From Acidimicrobiaceae bacterium (GTDB lineage Bacteria; Actinomycetota; Acidimicrobiia; Acidimicrobiales; RAAP-2): DNA of 64,000 nt. The position numbers and the translations under genes are program-made. A model generated the notes under the pieces. It saw only the letters and a program-made list of their open reading frames with translations. It did not search any database and had not been told where the DNA came from. This document shows, one piece after another, positions 12,882-51,715 of this stretch; the stretch's first letter is position 1, and every line of letters starts with the position of its first letter. The stretch lies in NCBI GenBank assembly GCA_027314705.1, contig DAHVAJ010000012.1:1-64000 (forward strand). Reading direction: 5' to 3'.

Positions 12882-13562
12882 TCAGGCCGACGCGGCCACC
12901 GCGTCGGCCAGGAGCTCCTCCTCGCCCGGGAGGACCAGGACCCGGTAGCCGGCCCGGCGCTCCAGCCAGGCCCGATTGCGGCGGTGCAGCTCGCGGGAGT
13001 GGTCGTACCGGTCGAGCACGACGACGGCCGCCGGCGGGTCACCCACGGCCGTGGACAGCGCCGCCATGCTCAGGCTCACGCTGTTGATGGTACCCAGCCC
13101 GGCGTCCGCCACCAGGACCACCGCGTCGGGACGGAGGGCGCCGCAGAAGTCGACGGCGTCCCCGTCGTCGGCCTGGGGGGAGCGCACCCCACCGGCCGTC
13201 TCGACCAGGCCGACGGCGACCGACCTGGTCGGCCAGGCCAGCGCGCCGTACAGGTCGGCCACCGTGAAGGCCGGGAGGCCGAGTGCTTCGGCGGCCATGG
13301 GCGGGGCCATGGCCCGCGGGTACCAACGGGAGCGGCGGCAGACCTGGTCGGGCCGCTCGCCCGAGGCCTCCCCCAGCACCTCGGCGTCGGTGGCGCCCCC
13401 GAGCACTCCCCCGTCGCCGTCCACCTCGAACGACTGGGCCGGCTTGCGGGCGGCCACGGTGAGGCCCCGCCCCCGCAGCACGGCCAGCAGGCGGGCCCCC
13501 ACCCACGTCTTGCCCACGTCGGTGGCGGTGCCGCAGACCAGGACGACCCGGTCAGGCCGCAC
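12882..13562 (-). CDS. bioD: Dethiobiotin synthetase
   Basis: ATP-dependent closure of the ureido ring, converting DAPA to dethiobiotin. P-loop GTATDVGKTW (11-20), KPAQSF, ETAGGVRSP and VADAGLGTIN are typical. 226 residues. GTG start lies 11 bases inside the 3' end of bioF, so translation is probably coupled in a bioA-bioF-bioD operon. Confidence 0.94.
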   Translation of the reverse strand: MRPDRVVLVCGTATDVGKTWVGARLLAVLRGRGLTVAARKPAQSFEVDGDGGVLGGATDAEVLGEASGERPDQVCRRSRWYPRAMAPPMAAEALGLPAFTVADLYGALAWPTRSVAVGLVETAGGVRSPQADDGDAVDFCGALRPDAVVLVADAGLGTINSVSLSMAALSTAVGDPPAAVVVLDRYDHSRELHRRNRAWLERRAGYRVLVLPGEEELLADAVAASA

Positions 13563-14733
13563 CGGACGATCCCCGGGGAACGACGGCGTCCAGGGCGGCC
13601 ACCAGCCGGGCGACCTGCTCGTCGGCGTGGGCGGCCGAGAGCGTCACCCGGAGCCGGGACGTGCCCACCGGGACGGTGGGTGGCCGGATGGCCGGCACCC
13701 ACAGGCCGGCCCCGAGCAGCTGGTCGGCCGCGCCCAGGGCGGCCTCCTCGCTGCCCAGCACCACCGGCAGGATGGGTGACCGGTGGTGGGCCAGGCCGAC
13801 CGCCCCGGCCACCCGGTCCACGTGGGCGGTCAGGCGGGCACGCAGGACGTCGCCCTCGGGCGAGCGCACCACCTCCAGCGCGGCCAGGGCGGCGGCGGCG
13901 GCGGCCGGCGTGGGGGCGGTGGTGAAGACGTAGGGGCGGGCCAGGTTGACCAGCAGGTCGACGGCGTGCCGGGAGCCGGCCACGAACCCGCCCAGCGAGC
14001 CGAGCGCCTTCGAGAGGGTCCCGACCCGGAGGACGTCGGGGGCGGCGCCGGGAGCCAGGTCCGGACCGAGGACGGCGTGGGCCTCGTCGAGGACCAGGAG
14101 GGCGCCGTACCGGGTGGCCAGGGCGGCCAGCCCCTCGAGGTCGGCGGCGTCGCCGTCCATCGAGAAGACGGCGTCCGTGACGACCACGGCGCGTCCGGGC
14201 GTGGCGGCCAGGGCGGCACCGAGGGCGGCGAGGTCGCCGTGGGGGTAGACGCGGACCTCGGCCCGGGCCAACCGGCACCCGTCGATGATGGAGGCGTGGT
14301 TGAGCTCGTCCGAGTGGACGGTCACCCCCGGCCCGGCGACGACCGACAGCACCGAGAGGTTGGCGGCGAACCCCGTCGGGAAGACGACCGCGGCCTCGGT
14401 GCCCTTCCACTCGGCCAGAGCCGCCTCGAGATCGTGGTGGACCGGCCGGGAGCCGGTCACCAACCGGGAGGCCCCGGCCCCTGCACCCCATCGGTCGAGC
14501 GCCGTGTGGGCCGCGGCGACGACGGCCGGATGGGTGGTCAGTCCGAGGTAGTCGTTGGAGGCGAACGAGACGACCGGCCGGGCCGCGCTGGGAGCGGGCA
14601 CCCCGGGCGGCGCCTCGAGCAGCCCGGCAGGGCCGCTCGCGTCGAACGGGCGCGGCGCCCGCCACCGGCCGACGGCGGCCACGGCCCGACACGACTCCTC
14701 GATCCACGCCTCCCAGGTGGTCGGCGGCGTCAC
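13552..14733 (-). CDS. bioF: 8-amino-7-oxononanoate synthase
   Basis: PLP enzyme that condenses pimeloyl-thioester with L-alanine to KAPA. Motifs: FASNDYLGLTTHP, GAGASRLVTG, SDELNHASIIDG, VLDEAHA, and the PLP lysine in TLSKALGSLGG (Lys242). The start is GTG 14733, overlapping the bioA stop as GTGA; 393 residues is normal. No bioC, bioH or bioW is visible nearby, so the pimeloyl source is encoded elsewhere. Confidence 0.95.
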   Translation of the reverse strand: MTPPTTWEAWIEESCRAVAAVGRWRAPRPFDASGPAGLLEAPPGVPAPSAARPVVSFASNDYLGLTTHPAVVAAAHTALDRWGAGAGASRLVTGSRPVHHDLEAALAEWKGTEAAVVFPTGFAANLSVLSVVAGPGVTVHSDELNHASIIDGCRLARAEVRVYPHGDLAALGAALAATPGRAVVVTDAVFSMDGDAADLEGLAALATRYGALLVLDEAHAVLGPDLAPGAAPDVLRVGTLSKALGSLGGFVAGSRHAVDLLVNLARPYVFTTAPTPAAAAAALAALEVVRSPEGDVLRARLTAHVDRVAGAVGLAHHRSPILPVVLGSEEAALGAADQLLGAGLWVPAIRPPTVPVGTSRLRVTLSAAHADEQVARLVAALDAVVPRGSSGAA

Positions 14734-16046
14734 CGGGCGTCCTCGGCCCGCACCTCGGCGATCGCGGCGACCAGCACGTCCACCACCCGGTCGAGCTCGT
14801 CGGCCGTGCTGGTGAGGGGGGGCATGAGCACGACCACGTCGCCGAGCGGGCGAAGCAGGACGCCTCGGCGCACGGCGCCGGCGCACACGCGGCGGCCCCA
14901 GCGGGAGGCGCCGGGGGGCGGATCGAGCTCCACGCCGACCATCAGGCCGCGTCGGCGCACCTCGGCCACCCCCTCGAGCGCGGCCACCTCGGCCAGACGT
15001 CCCCCGAGGTGGTCGGCGACGGCTCGCACGTGGGCGAGCACGTCCCACTCCTCGAGGAGCTGCAGGTGCCGCAGGGCCACCGCGCACGCCAGGGCGTTCC
15101 CCCCGTAGGAGTGGCCGTGGTAGAAGGTGCGGTCCCCGAGGTCCTCGCCGAGGAACGCCTCGTAGACGGATCCGGCCACCACCGTGGCCGAGAGCGGGAG
15201 GTAGCCGCCGCTGATGCCCTTGCCCAGGCAGAGGAGGTCGGGGCGAAACCCGGGACCGGCCCACTCCGACGCGAAGAGCCGCCCCGTCCGGCCGAACCCG
15301 GTGGCCACCTCGTCGCAGATCAGGAGGACGCCGTGGGCCCGGCAGGCCTCGCCGAGCCGGGTGAGGTCGGTGGCCTCGGCCACCAGCATGCCCGAGGCCC
15401 CCTGGACCAACGGCTCGATCACCACCGCGGCCAGCGTGTCGGCATGGTCCTCGACCGCGGCCACGGCCGTGGCCGCCCAGTCGGCGCTGGCGTACCCGGG
15501 GGTGCGCAGGACCGGGAAGCGGAGTGGGTCGAAGACGGTGGTGCCGAAACCGCCGGCGCCCAGGGAGAGCGCGCCGACCGTGTCGCCGTGGTAGGCGCCG
15601 TCGAGGGCGAGGAACCGGTGGCGGCGGGGCTCGCCCCGGTTGACCCAGTACTGGAAGGCGACCTTCAGGGCCTGTTCGACGGCCACCGCACCGTCAGAAC
15701 CGAAGAGCACGTGGGGGGCGTCGACGGGCACCACGGCGCACAGGGCCTCGGCGAATTCGATCACGGACACGCTGCCGTTGCCGAGGAGGGTGGCGTGGGC
15801 CACCCGGCCGAGCTGGTCGATCACGGCCGCGTCGAGCTCGGGGAGGCGGTGTCCGAGCGTGGTCACCCAGAGCGACGAGATGGCGTCGAAGTAGCGGTTG
15901 CCGTGGACGTCGACCACCTCGCGCCCCTCGGCGGAGGCCACCGTGACCGGGACGTTGCCGGCGTAGGTGGCCATCTGGGTGAACCCGTGCCACACCACCG
16001 CGGCGTCGCGGGCCACCCAGGGGTCGGAAGGGGTGGGCGCAGCCAT
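14730..16046 (-). CDS. bioA: Adenosylmethionine-8-amino-7-oxononanoate aminotransferase
   Basis: Class III aminotransferase that makes DAPA from KAPA with SAM as amino donor. Typical BioA features are ISSLWVTTLGHRLPELDAA, FGSDGAVAVEQALK, ALDGAYHGDTVGA, CDEVATGFGRTG, the PLP lysine in LGKGISGGYLPLSA, and YHGHSYGGNALAC. ATG at 16046 gives 438 residues, matching the family; it heads the bioAFD operon and diverges from the riboflavin synthase gene across 79 bases. Confidence 0.95.
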   Translation of the reverse strand: MAAPTPSDPWVARDAAVVWHGFTQMATYAGNVPVTVASAEGREVVDVHGNRYFDAISSLWVTTLGHRLPELDAAVIDQLGRVAHATLLGNGSVSVIEFAEALCAVVPVDAPHVLFGSDGAVAVEQALKVAFQYWVNRGEPRRHRFLALDGAYHGDTVGALSLGAGGFGTTVFDPLRFPVLRTPGYASADWAATAVAAVEDHADTLAAVVIEPLVQGASGMLVAEATDLTRLGEACRAHGVLLICDEVATGFGRTGRLFASEWAGPGFRPDLLCLGKGISGGYLPLSATVVAGSVYEAFLGEDLGDRTFYHGHSYGGNALACAVALRHLQLLEEWDVLAHVRAVADHLGGRLAEVAALEGVAEVRRRGLMVGVELDPPPGASRWGRRVCAGAVRRGVLLRPLGDVVVLMPPLTSTADELDRVVDVLVAAIAEVRAEDAR

Positions 16047-16125: not shown

Positions 16126-16602
16126 ATGGACCGCATCGGCGTCGTCGACACCATGTTCGCCCGCTACGACATGGGCGCCGAGGCCGTCGACGAGCTCGCC
16201 TCCTGTCCGGGCCACGGCACCGTCTTCGAGGTGGTGCGCCGCACCGTCCCCGGGTTCAAGGACCTCGGGGTCGAAGCCAAGCGCCTCATCGAGGTCGACG
16301 GCTGCCGCATCGTGGTGGCCCTCGGGATGCCCGGGCGGGCCGCCATCGACCAGGTCTGCGCCCACGAGGCCTCGCAGGGGATCATGCTGGCCCAGCTCCT
16401 GACCAACACCCACGTCCTGGAAGTCTTCGTGCACGAGACGGAGGAGGACGACCCGTCCCGACTGGCCGGGGTGTGCGCCGACCGCTCCCGCAAACACGCA
16501 CGCAACGCCTACTGGATGCTCTACGAGCCCGAGCAGCTCACCCGGCGGGCCGGCCTGGGCGTCCGCCAGGGGTACGAGGACGCCGGTCCCCTGGCCCCGT
16601 GA
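16126..16602 (+). CDS. ribC: Archaeal-type riboflavin synthase
   Basis: Converts two 6,7-dimethyl-8-ribityllumazine molecules into riboflavin. The 158 residues match the archaeal RibC family, a paralogue of lumazine synthase, not the bacterial double-barrel RibE. Shared phrases are VDTMFARYDMG, RRTVPGFKDL, VALGMPGRA, VCAHEASQGIMLAQLLTN, EVFVHE and the end GVRQGYEDAGP; these run the whole length with normal spacing. It stands alone, divergent from bioA, with no other rib gene in the window. Family assignment is strong; transfer from archaea is inference. Confidence 0.93.
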   Translation: MDRIGVVDTMFARYDMGAEAVDELASCPGHGTVFEVVRRTVPGFKDLGVEAKRLIEVDGCRIVVALGMPGRAAIDQVCAHEASQGIMLAQLLTNTHVLEVFVHETEEDDPSRLAGVCADRSRKHARNAYWMLYEPEQLTRRAGLGVRQGYEDAGPLAP

Positions 16603-16623: not shown

Positions 16624-17760
16624 TCAGACCTGCGGGTCGTGGGGGAGGCCGAGGGCCCGCTCGGCCACGATGTTTCGCTGCACCTCGGCGGTGCCGCCCC
16701 CGATGGTGAGGGCCGGCGAGAAGAGAAACCCGTAGCCCCACATGGTCGCCGGCCAGCCGCCGGGCGCGTCCCCGGGCACCGGGCCCGTCCCGTTCAGCAT
16801 GCCGCCGGCCCCGGCCAGGTCTCGAGCGAGCCCCATCACCTGCCGGCCGTGCTCGTCGGCCAGGGCCTTGCGCACTGAGGCCTCGGGGCCGGGCGGCGCG
16901 CCGGCCAGCGCGGCGGAGACGGTCCGGAGCCGGAGGAGGCGGAGGAGCTCCCCTTCGCCCCAGACCCGGGCCAGCCGCTGACGCAGGAGCGGGTCGGTGG
17001 TGCCCCCGGCCCGGCGGACGGCCTCGATCAGGTCGTCGGCGGTGGGCCCCTGCCCCCACAGCGACCCCGCCCCCGAGAGCGAGACCCGCTCGTTGCCCAG
17101 CGTCACCTTGGCCAGGGCCCACCCCTGCCCCGGCTCGCCCACCAGCTGTCCGGCCGGGAGTCTCACCTCGTCGAGGAAGACCTCGTTGAAGGTATGGGTG
17201 CCCGTCATGTCCACCAGGGGCCGCACGGTGACGCCCGGGGCGTCCATGGGGCAGACGAAGTACGAGATGCCCCGGTGGCGGGGGGCGTCGGGGTCGGTGC
17301 GGGCCAGCAGGATCCCGAGGTGGGCGACGTGGGCGTACGAGGTCCAGACCTTCTGCCCCGAGACCACCCACTGGTCGCCGTCGCGCACGGCCCGGGTGGT
17401 GAGCGAGGCCAGATCGGAGCCGGCGCCGGGCTCGCTGAACAACTGGCACCAGATCTCCTCGCCGGCCAGCAGGGGCAGGAGGTACCGGGACGTCTGGGCC
17501 TCGGTGCCGGCGTGGACCAGGGTGGGGCCGGCCCAGCCGATCCCGATCGGGTTGTCCGGCCGGCGCACGCGGGCCCGGCGCAGTTCCTCGTCCACCACCA
17601 GCTGGAGGGCCGGATCCGCCCCGAGGCCCCACGGGGCCGGCCAGTGCGGCGCCACGAGCCCCCGCTCCGCCAGCTCCCGCCCGGTCGGGTCCGGGTGGTC
17701 GGCGAGCCACGCCCGCAGCTCGGCCCGGCGGGGATCGTCGTCGGCTCGTGCACCGTCCAT
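16624..17760 (-). CDS. Acyl-CoA dehydrogenase
   Basis: FAD enzyme of the acyl-CoA dehydrogenase family, 378 residues. Motifs: LFSEPGAGSDLASLTTRA, WVVSGQKVWTSYAHVA, KVTLGNERVSL, and the C-terminal helix with GGGTAEVQRNIVAERALGLP. Actinobacteria often use this branch for steroid or branched acyl-CoA breakdown; the substrate cannot be fixed here. It diverges from an acyl-CoA synthetase gene, suggesting a common pathway. Confidence 0.93.
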   Translation of the reverse strand: MDGARADDDPRRAELRAWLADHPDPTGRELAERGLVAPHWPAPWGLGADPALQLVVDEELRRARVRRPDNPIGIGWAGPTLVHAGTEAQTSRYLLPLLAGEEIWCQLFSEPGAGSDLASLTTRAVRDGDQWVVSGQKVWTSYAHVAHLGILLARTDPDAPRHRGISYFVCPMDAPGVTVRPLVDMTGTHTFNEVFLDEVRLPAGQLVGEPGQGWALAKVTLGNERVSLSGAGSLWGQGPTADDLIEAVRRAGGTTDPLLRQRLARVWGEGELLRLLRLRTVSAALAGAPPGPEASVRKALADEHGRQVMGLARDLAGAGGMLNGTGPVPGDAPGGWPATMWGYGFLFSPALTIGGGTAEVQRNIVAERALGLPHDPQV

Positions 17761-17856: not shown

Positions 17857-19512
17857 GTGACCGCGTGGAACTTCGCCGATGTCTGGGAGGCGGTGGCCGA
17901 CGAGCTCCCGGACGCGCCGGCGCTGACCCACGGAGATCGCACGCTGCGCTGGTCCGAGTTCGACCACCGGGCGGACAACGTCGCCCGCTGGCTCCTGGGT
18001 GCCGGGCTGGCCCGACAGGACAAGGTCGCCCTCTACCTCTACAACTGCCCCGAGTACCTCGAAGCCACCTTCGCATCCCACAAGATCGGCCTCGTCCCCA
18101 TCAACACCAACTACCGGTATGCCGACGACGAGCTCGTCTACCTCTGGGACAACGCTGACGCGGCGGCCGTGGTGTTCCACGGCACCTTCGTCGAGCGCAT
18201 CGAGGGCGTCCGCCACCGGGTCCCCGCCGTGCGCGGCTGGCTGTGGGTCGACGACGGCACGGCCGCCTGCCCGGCCTGGGCCACCCCGTACGAGGAGGCA
18301 GCGGAGACCACGGGCCTGCCGGCCCCGGACGGGGGTCACCGGCGGGTCCGGGCCCCGTGGGACCGCTCCCCCGACGATCTGCACCTGCTCTACACGGGTG
18401 GGACCACGGGGATGCCGAAGGGTGTCATGTGGCGCCAAGACGACCTCTTTGCCCGGCTCAACGGCGGCGGGTTCCGGCGCTTCCCGACCGACGGCGGCGT
18501 CAGCGACGTCCGCGAGGAGCTCCGGCGCAACGGGCCCGGCATGACACTCCTGCCCGCGTGCCCCCTCATGCACGGGACCGGCGGGTTCACCGCCATGGAG
18601 TGCCTGAGCGAGGGCGGCCGGGTGGTCACCCTGGCCTCCCGGCAGTTCGATCCGGTCGAGCTGCTCGACACCGTCGAGCGTGAGCGGGTCAACTCGCTCG
18701 TCATCGTGGGCGACGCCTTCGGCAAGCCCATCCTGGCCACCCTCGACGCCCACCCGGGACGGTGGGACCTCACGAGTCTGCTGGCCGTCGTCTCCTCCGG
18801 GGTCATGTGGAGCGAGCCGACCAAGCAGGGGCTCCTCAAGCACCACCAGGGCATGCTGCTGGTCGACGCCTTCTCGTCGTCGGAGGCCCTGGGGATGGGG
18901 ACGTCCGTCTCCTCGGCGTCCGACTCGGCCGAGACCGCCCGGTTCACCCTGGGCCCCGAGGTCCGGGTGATCGACGCCGACGGCCGAGACGTCGAACCCG
19001 GCTCCGGGCGTACCGGCGTGCTGGCCCTCGGGGGCCGCATCCCGGTCGGCTACTACAAGGACGAGGCCAAGACGGCGGCCACGTTCCGCACCATCGACGG
19101 GAACCGCTACTCGGTGCCCGGCGACTGGGCCGAGGTCCGGGCCGACGGGTCCATCCACCTGCTCGGCCGGGGCTCGGTGTGCATCAACACCGGGGGCGAG
19201 AAGGTCTACCCCGAGGAGGTGGAGGAGGTGGTCAAGACGGTCGGCGGCGTCCGTGACGCCGTCGTGGTGGGGGTCCCGAGCGAGCGGTTCGGCGAGGAGA
19301 TCGTGGCCGTCGTCCAGCTGGCCGAGGACGTGACCGGTGGGTCCGTCGACCCCGACGAGGTGATCGCCCACGTGAAGTCCCGCCTGGCCGGCTACAAGGC
19401 CCCGCGGCACGTGCGCTTCGTCGGGACCATCGGGCGGTCGCCCTCGGGCAAGGTCGACTACGCCCGTCACCGGACCGAGGCGGCGGCGTGGCTGGACGTG
19501 CCGACCGCGTGA
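17857..19512 (+). CDS. Acyl-CoA synthetase (AMP-forming)
   Basis: 551-residue adenylate-forming enzyme that activates a carboxylic acid to its CoA ester. P-loop-like YTGGTTGMPKGVMW, LPACPLMHGTGG, the acyl-pocket strand with DAFSSSEALGMG, GRGSVCINTGGEKVYPEEVE and the C-terminal catalytic lysine in RSPSGKVDY are present. GTG start with GGAGGG seven bases upstream. The family is FadD-like and the substrate unknown. Convergent with the RmlA-like gene. Confidence 0.94.
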   Translation: MTAWNFADVWEAVADELPDAPALTHGDRTLRWSEFDHRADNVARWLLGAGLARQDKVALYLYNCPEYLEATFASHKIGLVPINTNYRYADDELVYLWDNADAAAVVFHGTFVERIEGVRHRVPAVRGWLWVDDGTAACPAWATPYEEAAETTGLPAPDGGHRRVRAPWDRSPDDLHLLYTGGTTGMPKGVMWRQDDLFARLNGGGFRRFPTDGGVSDVREELRRNGPGMTLLPACPLMHGTGGFTAMECLSEGGRVVTLASRQFDPVELLDTVERERVNSLVIVGDAFGKPILATLDAHPGRWDLTSLLAVVSSGVMWSEPTKQGLLKHHQGMLLVDAFSSSEALGMGTSVSSASDSAETARFTLGPEVRVIDADGRDVEPGSGRTGVLALGGRIPVGYYKDEAKTAATFRTIDGNRYSVPGDWAEVRADGSIHLLGRGSVCINTGGEKVYPEEVEEVVKTVGGVRDAVVVGVPSERFGEEIVAVVQLAEDVTGGSVDPDEVIAHVKSRLAGYKAPRHVRFVGTIGRSPSGKVDYARHRTEAAAWLDVPTA

Positions 19513-28441: not shown

Positions 28442-28804
28442 TCAGGCGGTGCGAACCCGTTGGAAGAGGGACTCGGTCGAGACCGGGCGGCGGCGGGGCT
28501 GCGAGCGACCCACGAGTCGGCCCTTGGCCTTCTCGAGCTGGTGCTCGAGCTTTTCGACCACGAGGTCCACGGCCACGAGCGGCACGCGGGCGTCGGCGTG
28601 GGCCCGGATGGTACGACCGTGCCCCGACATGATCACCTCGCAACGCTCACGGTCGGTGATCCGGGGGTTGTGCTCCTCGGTGAAGTGCACCTCGGCCCGC
28701 TCCAGCCCGGGGCAGTGCTGCGCGATCCGGCGGACCTTCTCCTCCGTGAGCGACCGGATCTCGTCGGACACGATCCTGCGGCCATGCGTGATCACCACGT
28801 CCAC
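28442..28804 (-). CDS. hpf: Ribosome hibernation promoting factor, short form
   Basis: Binds the 30S decoding region and silences idle ribosomes (HPF/RaiA S30AE domain). 120 residues: DVVITHGRRIVSDEIRS, HFTEEHNPRITDRERCEV, IRAHADARVPLVAVDLVVEKLEHQL. The long C-terminal dimerisation domain found in most actinobacterial HPFs is absent; the tail is only a short basic stretch. The start is GTG 28804, fixed by AGGAGG seven bases upstream. Confidence 0.9.
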   Translation of the reverse strand: MDVVITHGRRIVSDEIRSLTEEKVRRIAQHCPGLERAEVHFTEEHNPRITDRERCEVIMSGHGRTIRAHADARVPLVAVDLVVEKLEHQLEKAKGRLVGRSQPRRRPVSTESLFQRVRTA

Positions 28805-28811
28805 GACTGTG

Positions 28812-28817
28812 CCTCCT
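28812..28817 (-). promoter_or_regulatory. Ribosome binding site of hpf
   Basis: Perfect AGGAGG with a seven-base spacer to GTG 28804; it decides this start over the in-frame GTG at 28864. Strong ribosome sites are rare in this window. Confidence 0.75.
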
Positions 28818-29072
28818 TGCCTGTTCGGCAGGGCCGGCCACGCGCCAGCCGGCCGCTGCACCACTGTGCGTCGGTGTACCTACTGCGTCGACGTTCCGAA
28901 CCTCCTCGTGGTCGACCGTCGGGTCGGGTGGACAGAGGTGAGCGGCGTGCGGCTGACCTGGTCTTTGACCCCACACTCGCCTGCTGGGAGAGTTGCACCC
29001 GGGCGCCGGCGGCGCCGACCGTGTCCGGCCGGCCACCCTGCGGCGCCACCCAGGGGGCGCGTCGTCCCCTCT

Positions 29073-29104
29073 CCGTCGGCCCCCGACAACCGGGGGCCCG
29101 ACGG
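29073..29104. terminator. Strong GC hairpin, terminator or leader structure
   Basis: Stem GGCCCCCG / CGGGGGCC around loop ACAAC, extended by five more pairs past a single bulged C. No T-tract follows on either strand, so it is either a U-less terminator after the isomerase gene or part of the hpf leader. Confidence 0.45.
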
Positions 29105-29334
29105 GCAGGGCTTACTCCTAAGCCGCACCATGCTCAGCAACCACGAGTTGCCTTACGTGGGTCGTTTCGCCTGCGACTGGCTTCGACTTGCAACCACAGA
29201 CCCGCACACCGCTCACGCCCCGAAGTGTACGCCCCCGTGCCGGCCCGGGACAGGGTCTGATGCCCGGAGTTCACGGGCCCGACACGGGCCCGTCATCCAA
29301 CCGACACGGAGGGGGACGGGCCCGGGTCGCCGGC

Positions 29335-50043: not shown

Positions 50044-50970
50044 GTGATCACCGCCCTGTGCGGCGGCGTCGGGGCTGCTCGCCTGTTGCGGGGCATGGTC
50101 GAGGTGGTGCCGGCCGGGGAGGTGGCTGCGGTGGTCAACACCGGCGACGACACCGTCCTCCACGGGCTCCACATCTCCCCCGACCTCGACACCGTCGTCT
50201 ACACCCTGGCCGACGCCGTCAACCCGGAGACGGGGTGGGGCCTGGCCGACGAGACGTGGCGGGTGATGGAGGCACTGTCCGACCTCGGCGGACAGACCTG
50301 GTTCCGCCTCGGCGACCGCGACCTGGCCACCCACTGCTACCGGACCCAGCGGCTGGCCGAGGGGGCCGGGCTCGGCGAGGTGGCCTCCGAGCTGGCCCGG
50401 TCGTTCGGTGTCGGGGTCCGGGTGCTGCCCGTCACCGACGACCCGCTCCGCACCTGCCTGACCCTGGTCGACGGTCCCGAGATCGACTTCCAGGAGTACT
50501 TCGTCCGGCTCCGGCACGGCGTGGCCGTCTCCGGGGTCCGCTTCGAGGGGGCCGCCACCGCCCGGCCCGGGCCCGGCGTCCTCGATGCCATCGCCGGGGC
50601 CGAGACGGTCGTCGTGTGCCCGTCCAACCCGGTCGTCTCCATCGACCCGGTGCTGGCCGTGCCGGGCGTGCGGGAGGCGCTCGCCGGGCGACGCGACCGC
50701 ATCGTCGCGGTCTCCCCCATTGTCGCCGGCGCCGCGCTGAAGGGTCCGGCCGACCGGCTCCTGGCCGAGCTCGGGGTGCCCCCCACGGCGGTAGGGGTGG
50801 CCCGCTGGTACGCCCCGTGGGTCGGCACCCTGGTCATCGACGAGGCCGACGCCCCCTTGGCCGGAGACGTCGAGGCCGAGGGCGTCCGCTGCGTCGTCGC
50901 CCCCACGGTCATGTCCTCGCTCGAGCGGTCGGCGGCGTTGGCCCGGGTGGTGCTCGGTGCCCTCGGCTGA
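50044..50970 (+). CDS. cofD: 2-phospho-lactate transferase CofD/FbiA
   Basis: Transfers the lactyl (or enolpyruvyl) phosphate unit to Fo, forming F420-0 or its dehydro form. 308 residues: ALCGGVGAARLLRGM, VVNTGDDTVLHGLHISPDLDTVVYTLA (in parts), FRLGDRDLATH, VCPSNPVVSIDPVL, SPIVAGAALKGPADRL. GTG start without a clear ribosome site; a TAGCCT box lies at 49999-50004. It overlaps cofE by 14 bases. Confidence 0.95.
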   Translation: MITALCGGVGAARLLRGMVEVVPAGEVAAVVNTGDDTVLHGLHISPDLDTVVYTLADAVNPETGWGLADETWRVMEALSDLGGQTWFRLGDRDLATHCYRTQRLAEGAGLGEVASELARSFGVGVRVLPVTDDPLRTCLTLVDGPEIDFQEYFVRLRHGVAVSGVRFEGAATARPGPGVLDAIAGAETVVVCPSNPVVSIDPVLAVPGVREALAGRRDRIVAVSPIVAGAALKGPADRLLAELGVPPTAVGVARWYAPWVGTLVIDEADAPLAGDVEAEGVRCVVAPTVMSSLERSAALARVVLGALG

Positions 50971-51715
50971 CGACCCCGCGCCTGCCGGTGGGCTCACCGT
51001 CTGGCCCGTCTCCGGCGTGGGCGAGATCCGTCCGGGGGACGACCTGGCTGCCGTGCTGACCACCGCCCTGGCGCCGCCCGGCCCCGACGGTCGGCCGTCC
51101 ACCTGGCTGCGCGAAGGGGACGTGCTCGTGATCACCCAGAAGGTCGTCTCGAAGGCCGAAGGCCGCATCGTCGAGGTCGACCCGGCCGACCGGGCGGCCA
51201 AGCAGGCCCTCGTCGAGCGGGAGGCCGTCCGGGTACTGCGCCGGCGCGGCGACCTCCTCATCACCGAGACCCGCCACGGCTTCATCTGCGCCAACGCCGG
51301 GGTCGACCTCTCGAACGTCGACGCGGGGACGGCCGCCCTGCTGCCCGTCGACCCCGACCGCTCGGCCCGGCGGCTGCGTCACTCCCTCGCCCACCGCCTC
51401 GGGGTCGCCGTCGGCGTGATCGTGTCCGACACCTTCGGGAGGACCTGGCGCAACGGGGTCACCGACGTGGCCATCGGCATCGCCGGGATCGCCGGGGTCG
51501 TGGACCTGCGCGGCACGCCCGACGCCACCGGGCGGGTGCTCGAGGCCACCGAGGTGTGCGTGGCCGACGAGCTGGCCGCCGCGGCCGAACTGGTCATGGG
51601 CAAGGCCCGTGGCGTGCCCGCCGCCGTGGTTCGGGGCGCCGACCCGGCCTGGCTGCGCCGGGCGTCGGTGGCCGCCGAGATCGTCCGCGCCCCGGGCGAC
51701 GATCTCTTCCGGTAG
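50957..51715 (+). CDS. cofE: F420-0:gamma-glutamyl ligase CofE
   Basis: Adds glutamates to F420-0. 252 residues: GEIRPGDDLAAVL, DVLVITQKVVSKAEGR, ITETRHGFICANAGVDLSNVD (in parts), SDTFGRTWRNGVTDVAIGIAG. Mycobacterial FbiB carries an extra C-terminal nitroreductase-like domain that reduces dehydro-F420-0; this protein ends after the ligase domain, so that activity must lie elsewhere. GTG start inside the cofD end. Confidence 0.94.
   Translation: MPSADDPAPAGGLTVWPVSGVGEIRPGDDLAAVLTTALAPPGPDGRPSTWLREGDVLVITQKVVSKAEGRIVEVDPADRAAKQALVEREAVRVLRRRGDLLITETRHGFICANAGVDLSNVDAGTAALLPVDPDRSARRLRHSLAHRLGVAVGVIVSDTFGRTWRNGVTDVAIGIAGIAGVVDLRGTPDATGRVLEATEVCVADELAAAAELVMGKARGVPAAVVRGADPAWLRRASVAAEIVRAPGDDLFR

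Follow-up and report, generated by a model that had tools for sequence, protein, structure and literature searches.

The window, by which we mean the whole analysed stretch of 64,000 nucleotides, carries an intact open reading frame of 477 bp without internal stops, ribC, situated among biotin and acyl-CoA genes. The features referred to below are as follows.

16126..16602, plus strand: ribC, archaeal-type (pentameric family) riboflavin synthase, ATG start, TGA stop, 158 aa
12882..13562, minus strand: bioD-like AAA_26 protein of the biotin cluster
13552..14733, minus strand: bioF-like pyridoxal-phosphate enzyme of the biotin cluster, named from sequence
14730..16046, minus strand: bioA, class-III aminotransferase (biotin synthesis), divergent from ribC; 16046 is a chosen start codon
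16047..16125, no strand: divergent intergenic region between bioA and ribC, 79 bp
16624..17760, minus strand: acyl-CoA dehydrogenase, convergent and downstream of ribC, context only
17857..19512, plus strand: AMP-binding acyl-CoA synthetase, context only
50044-50970: CofD (F420)
50957-51715: F420 ligase

The promoters of bioA and ribC presumably both lie in the intergenic region. Searching the best 80 of 296 relatives with tblastn placed bioA divergently upstream of ribC in 25 loci and the acyl-CoA dehydrogenase convergently downstream in 23, and bioF orthologues adjoin bioA in many ribC loci. The gene is chromosomal, with a conserved context. The G+C content at the three codon positions of ribC (0.74/0.45/0.95) follows the pattern of the adjacent genes, and ribC therefore appears to be a resident coding gene.

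The sequence-only reading had assigned the whole protein to the archaeal RibC family, and this assignment holds over its full length. TIGR01506, the archaeal riboflavin synthase equivalog with a curated cut-off of 100.55 bits, matches residues 4-156 of 158 at 188.1 bits (E=8e-56), all four of the motifs cited by that reading are present (GMPG, CAHEAS, FVHE and RQGYEDAGP), and phmmer against the RibC of M. jannaschii (2B98) gave E=1.7e-51. An alignment of the window RibC with the M. jannaschii and Streptomyces proteins and three divergent acidimicrobial sequences has 52 invariant columns. The identity as an archaeal RibC is thereby confirmed and far from chance. A better match to lumazine synthase was looked for as well and was not obtained, the equivalog TIGR00114 giving 22 bits with a cut-off of 84.6. 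PF00885 (DMRL_synthase) also matches, at 48 bits, and this Pfam model spans both RibC and lumazine synthase. PF00677, the Lum_binding domain, does not appear when the protein is searched against Pfam.

An AlphaFold model of the monomer (pLDDT 89, pTM 0.84) has a flavodoxin-like fold. Its best PDB matches are the solved RibC structures 2B99/2B98, with a TM-score of 0.94 (target-normalised) and about 51-52% identity, and the lumazine synthases are further away, with TM-scores of about 0.70-0.77, about 20-22% identity and E around 1e-8. The window RibC thus shares family and fold with the M. jannaschii enzyme over the full length (54% identity) together with the C-terminal RQGxEDAGP signature; it differs in a three-residue insertion near residues 27-33 and in its host, a bacterium whose pathway is bacterial in its other parts (RibBA, RibD, RibF). 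Superfamily and fold are also common to the lumazine synthase RibH (PF00885/TIGR00114; about 22% identity), which, however, catalyses the step before that of RibC and is encoded separately in the window genome.

RibE and RibC fill the same pathway step. Bacterial RibE (PF00677) is a trimeric beta-barrel, unrelated to RibC in sequence and fold. According to Ramsperger et al. 2006, as cited in PMC10366380, the archaeal enzyme assembles into homopentamers and bears no relation to trimeric RibE; it dismutates 6,7-dimethyl-8-ribityllumazine, using two molecules per reaction. Judging from conserved sequence, predicted fold and pathway context, riboflavin synthase function of the window RibC is very likely; the protein would then be catalytically active and, like its archaeal relatives, probably pentameric.

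Searching the window genome (2.69 Mb in 131 contigs, 93% complete) for RibE with PF00677 gave no match and no first-look candidate either. A true RibH is encoded on a different contig (G000:C93:20132-20536, 157 bits). As a single genome that is incomplete carries little weight, profile searches for RibC, RibE and RibH were then extended to an order sample of 118 genomes. RibC is above the cut-off in 19 of these and RibE in 77, and no genome has both. RibH was found in 97, among them every one of the 19 RibC and 77 RibE genomes, so that 96 of the 97 RibH genomes have exactly one synthase. The remaining one (G004) has neither, and there a contig end cuts the rib cluster inside ribBA. A Fisher test of RibC against RibE on the 97 RibH genomes gives p=3e-19, a value which is a description and not independent evidence, as the genomes share ancestry.

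In twelve further RibC genomes, drawn from samples of the phylum and the class, no RibE passes the cut-off either. This gives no RibE above the cut-off in any of 31 RibC genomes of the order, with one 22-bit piece below it in a long frame of G469. All RibC carriers among the 396 phylum and 296 class genomes belong to the Acidimicrobiales. RibE genomes do give weak TIGR01506 matches (E 1e-4 to 1e-6), but these stay well under the cut-off and fall mostly on RibH genes. Given the pattern in the clade, it is very unlikely that a RibE was missed in the window genome.

The rib operon points in the same direction. Gene order is ribD-ribE-ribBA-ribH in RibE genomes and rpe-ribD-ribBA-ribH(-hisG) in RibC genomes, and the gap between ribD and ribBA measures 3-202 bp in 17 RibC genomes as against 559-1212 bp in 40 RibE genomes. 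With tblastn, RibE was found within this gap in nearly all of the 40, and the rib stretches of the RibC genomes gave no RibE match. The rib cluster of the window genome (L049) reads rpe, ribD, ribBA, ribH, hisG with a ribD-ribBA gap of about 200 bp. The bacterial ribE is removed from its slot and not just overlooked by the profile model.

RibD, RibBA and RibH of the RibC genomes are the bacterial operon's own. The bacterial FAD synthase RibF (PF06574) was found in 25 of 26 genomes examined, and the archaeal CTP-dependent riboflavin kinase (PF01982) in none of these 26. A complete archaeal riboflavin pathway is rejected on these grounds, and the exchange is confined to the last riboflavin step. 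Rfam found no FMN riboswitch in the window, nor in the five stretches of rib clusters that were searched.

The sequence-only reading had also remarked that riboflavin intermediates feed coenzyme F420 and that F420 genes are in the window. CofD and the F420 ligase are indeed there, 34 kb from ribC, but they have no mechanistic relevance for RibC. 5-Amino-6-ribitylaminouracil is the second product of riboflavin synthase in any organism. F420 synthesis branches at this compound, upstream of RibH and RibC (PMC12855090). The F420 precursor thus leaves the pathway before RibC acts, and we see no special link between RibC and F420 beyond that second product.

The best 80 of 296 relatives are, with few exceptions, from metagenome-assembled genomes (MAGs) of Acidimicrobiales, which are bacteria of soils and acid waters, or of unclassified Actinomycetes. 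The exceptions are one labelled Acidobacteriota, one labelled 'bacterium' and one non-MAG assembly, and no archaeal label occurs among these 80. The ribC homologues are intact in the best 80, including that of Aciditerrimonas ferrireducens MV1, which has no MAG tag and carries a RibC of 85% identity on a 194-kb contig, adjoined by the same biotin genes. Viral contigs scanned for RibC yielded 26 pattern matches, none of them a relative, and phage records gave no RibC; there is thus no sign of phage carriage. The RibC on the contig labelled Acidobacteriota (L081, JAGWNV010000066.1) is 85-87% identical to that of the window, and this contig is probably mislabelled or from a mixed bin.

The sequence-only reading had described an archaeal-type riboflavin synthase in an actinobacterium. 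This is confirmed, and a precedent exists. In roseoflavin-producing Streptomyces an archaeal-like RibE2 is an additional riboflavin synthase, attributed to horizontal transfer (PMC11039241). RibE2 lies in the rosB cluster of S. davaonensis, S. berlinensis and S. camelliae, and the plasmid-borne S. camelliae ribC (L146), adjoining ribX and rosB, is the nearest homologue found outside the order, 64.7% identical to the window protein. Its identity reaches 68% with acidimicrobial copies and is 50% with M. jannaschii. The two cases differ in role: the Streptomyces protein is an extra synthase in an antibiotic cluster, whereas the window RibC is the only recognisable synthase and is encoded outside such a cluster. 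No rosB, ribX or gamma-glutamyltransferase gene is among the identified neighbours of ribC in the window, where the bio and acyl-CoA genes are found instead.

Three other explanations of the locus were weighed. The window protein could be a second or divergent lumazine synthase, a RibH paralogue making no riboflavin, with the real synthase having gone unrecognised. The common superfamily and the PF00885 match favour this, yet the protein passes TIGR01506 and fails TIGR00114, its predicted fold is closer to RibC than to the lumazine synthases at about 20% identity, a strong separate RibH is already present in 19 of 19 RibC genomes, and RibC occurs exactly where RibE is missing. We regard a RibH paralogue as very improbable. 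No more credit can be given to an accessory copy serving a flavin-derived antibiotic or other specialised pathway, as Streptomyces ribE2 does, with riboflavin for growth coming from elsewhere. The resemblance to the S. camelliae gene and its neighbours speaks for such a role; against it stand the biotin and acyl-CoA context, kept in 23-25 loci among the best 80 of 296 relatives in place of rosB-cluster genes, and the window genome's lack of any RibE for growth, whereas the Streptomyces RibE2 comes in addition to another synthase (PMC11039241).

Contamination, meaning that binning or assembly had placed an archaeal gene in a bacterial genome, would be the least probable of all. The window genome is fragmented and most relatives are MAGs, which leaves room for such an error. 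However, ribC is surrounded by bacterial genes of the 64-kb window with matching codon-position G+C, the A. ferrireducens MV1 contig has the gene beside the same biotin genes, and the copies of the clade are closer to each other (67-87% identical to the window RibC) than to the archaeal copy of M. jannaschii (54%). Independent assemblies with a common ribC context refute contamination in practice.

We are highly confident that the window RibC is archaeal in type and the sole recognisable synthase of its genome, ribC presumably having been gained in an ancestor of one clade and ribE lost. The non-orthologous replacement of RibE that had been proposed for this locus is supported by the missing RibE, the separate RibH, the mutual exclusion and the closed slot. 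In the proposed mechanism, the ancestor of one Acidimicrobiales clade would have gained ribC, and ribE would have been lost from between ribD and ribBA with the rest of the bacterial pathway kept. The resident bacterial RibH would make 6,7-dimethyl-8-ribityllumazine, two molecules of which RibC would dismutate to riboflavin and 5-amino-6-ribitylaminouracil.

A maximum-likelihood tree of RibBA and RibH from 68 genomes brings the 18 RibC genomes together as one group with one parsimony change; the UFBoot support of this group is weak, at 54, and both genes tested are themselves riboflavin genes. The swap was apparently a single ancient event. We infer an archaeal source for the acidimicrobial ribC and, likewise, the order of ribC gain and ribE loss. 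One pair within family f31 is at odds with the grouping, G031 (L149) having RibC and G116 (L204) RibE. The rib proteins of G116 are more divergent (ribH 36% and ribBA 61% identical to the window genome), and in a third member, G081, RibH and both synthases are gone. A possible explanation of this pattern would be that the riboflavin operon was lost and later acquired again.

The RibC tree that had been suggested as a check was also computed, with M. jannaschii as the only archaeon for the donor question as well. Streptomyces falls among the acidimicrobial sequences, branching without support, and its separation from the Acidimicrobiales is not rejected (AU p=0.43). It is a tentative idea, and a rather doubtful one, that Streptomyces ribE2 came from the Acidimicrobiales clade rather than straight from an archaeon. 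An archaeal gene would then have become the sole synthase in Acidimicrobiales and later have been recruited by Streptomyces for antibiotic supply.

The archaeal RibC enzyme type is already known; new is its place as the sole recognisable riboflavin synthase across a clade. We thus regard the window ribC as a new case of a known enzyme family, spread through a whole lineage and unusual in its role there, and not as a new kind of system. A literature search of open-licence papers found no description of RibC as the sole synthase in Acidimicrobiales. The clade offers a clear-cut example, open to tests in culture, in which a structurally unrelated protein has taken the place of an essential core-metabolism enzyme, with the old ribE slot visibly closed. 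Riboflavin synthesis, an essential process, is being pursued as a target for antibacterials, and automatic checks based on RibE would wrongly score bacteria of the RibC clade as riboflavin auxotrophs. In Bacillus a RibH capsid cages the trimeric RibE. A pentameric RibC cannot simply replace a caged RibE, which raises the question of how, and whether, the last two steps are coupled in the RibC clade.

Some further observations concern the order. RibH, RibC and RibE are all missing in 21 of the 118 genomes, including the single-contig G006, which suggests that riboflavin auxotrophy is frequent in Acidimicrobiales. Seven genomes with a full RibH (G012, G016, G062, G070, G071, G106 and G107) encode another RibH-like protein as well; it is about 150 aa long, scores 68-81 bits, short of the lumazine synthase cut-off, and may be a type-II lumazine synthase. 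The window's own family includes three small genomes (G461, G676 and G702) with neither RibC nor RibE, a point against the proposed replacement. One of them, G461 (1.5 Mb; L210 and L216, the latter G461:C38:6000-24000), keeps ribD-ribBA-ribH and RibF, and its missing synthase could mean that the gene was lost, that it falls in an assembly gap, or that a third type of riboflavin synthase goes unrecognised there. G461 also has the acyl-CoA dehydrogenase which in the relative L047 flanks ribC, but beside a different neighbour.

Additionally, the window contains a raiA RNA, a known conserved RNA (Rfam RF03072, 140 bits), at 28944-29210 on the minus strand, directly upstream of an HPF/RaiA-like gene at 28442-28864 on the same strand.
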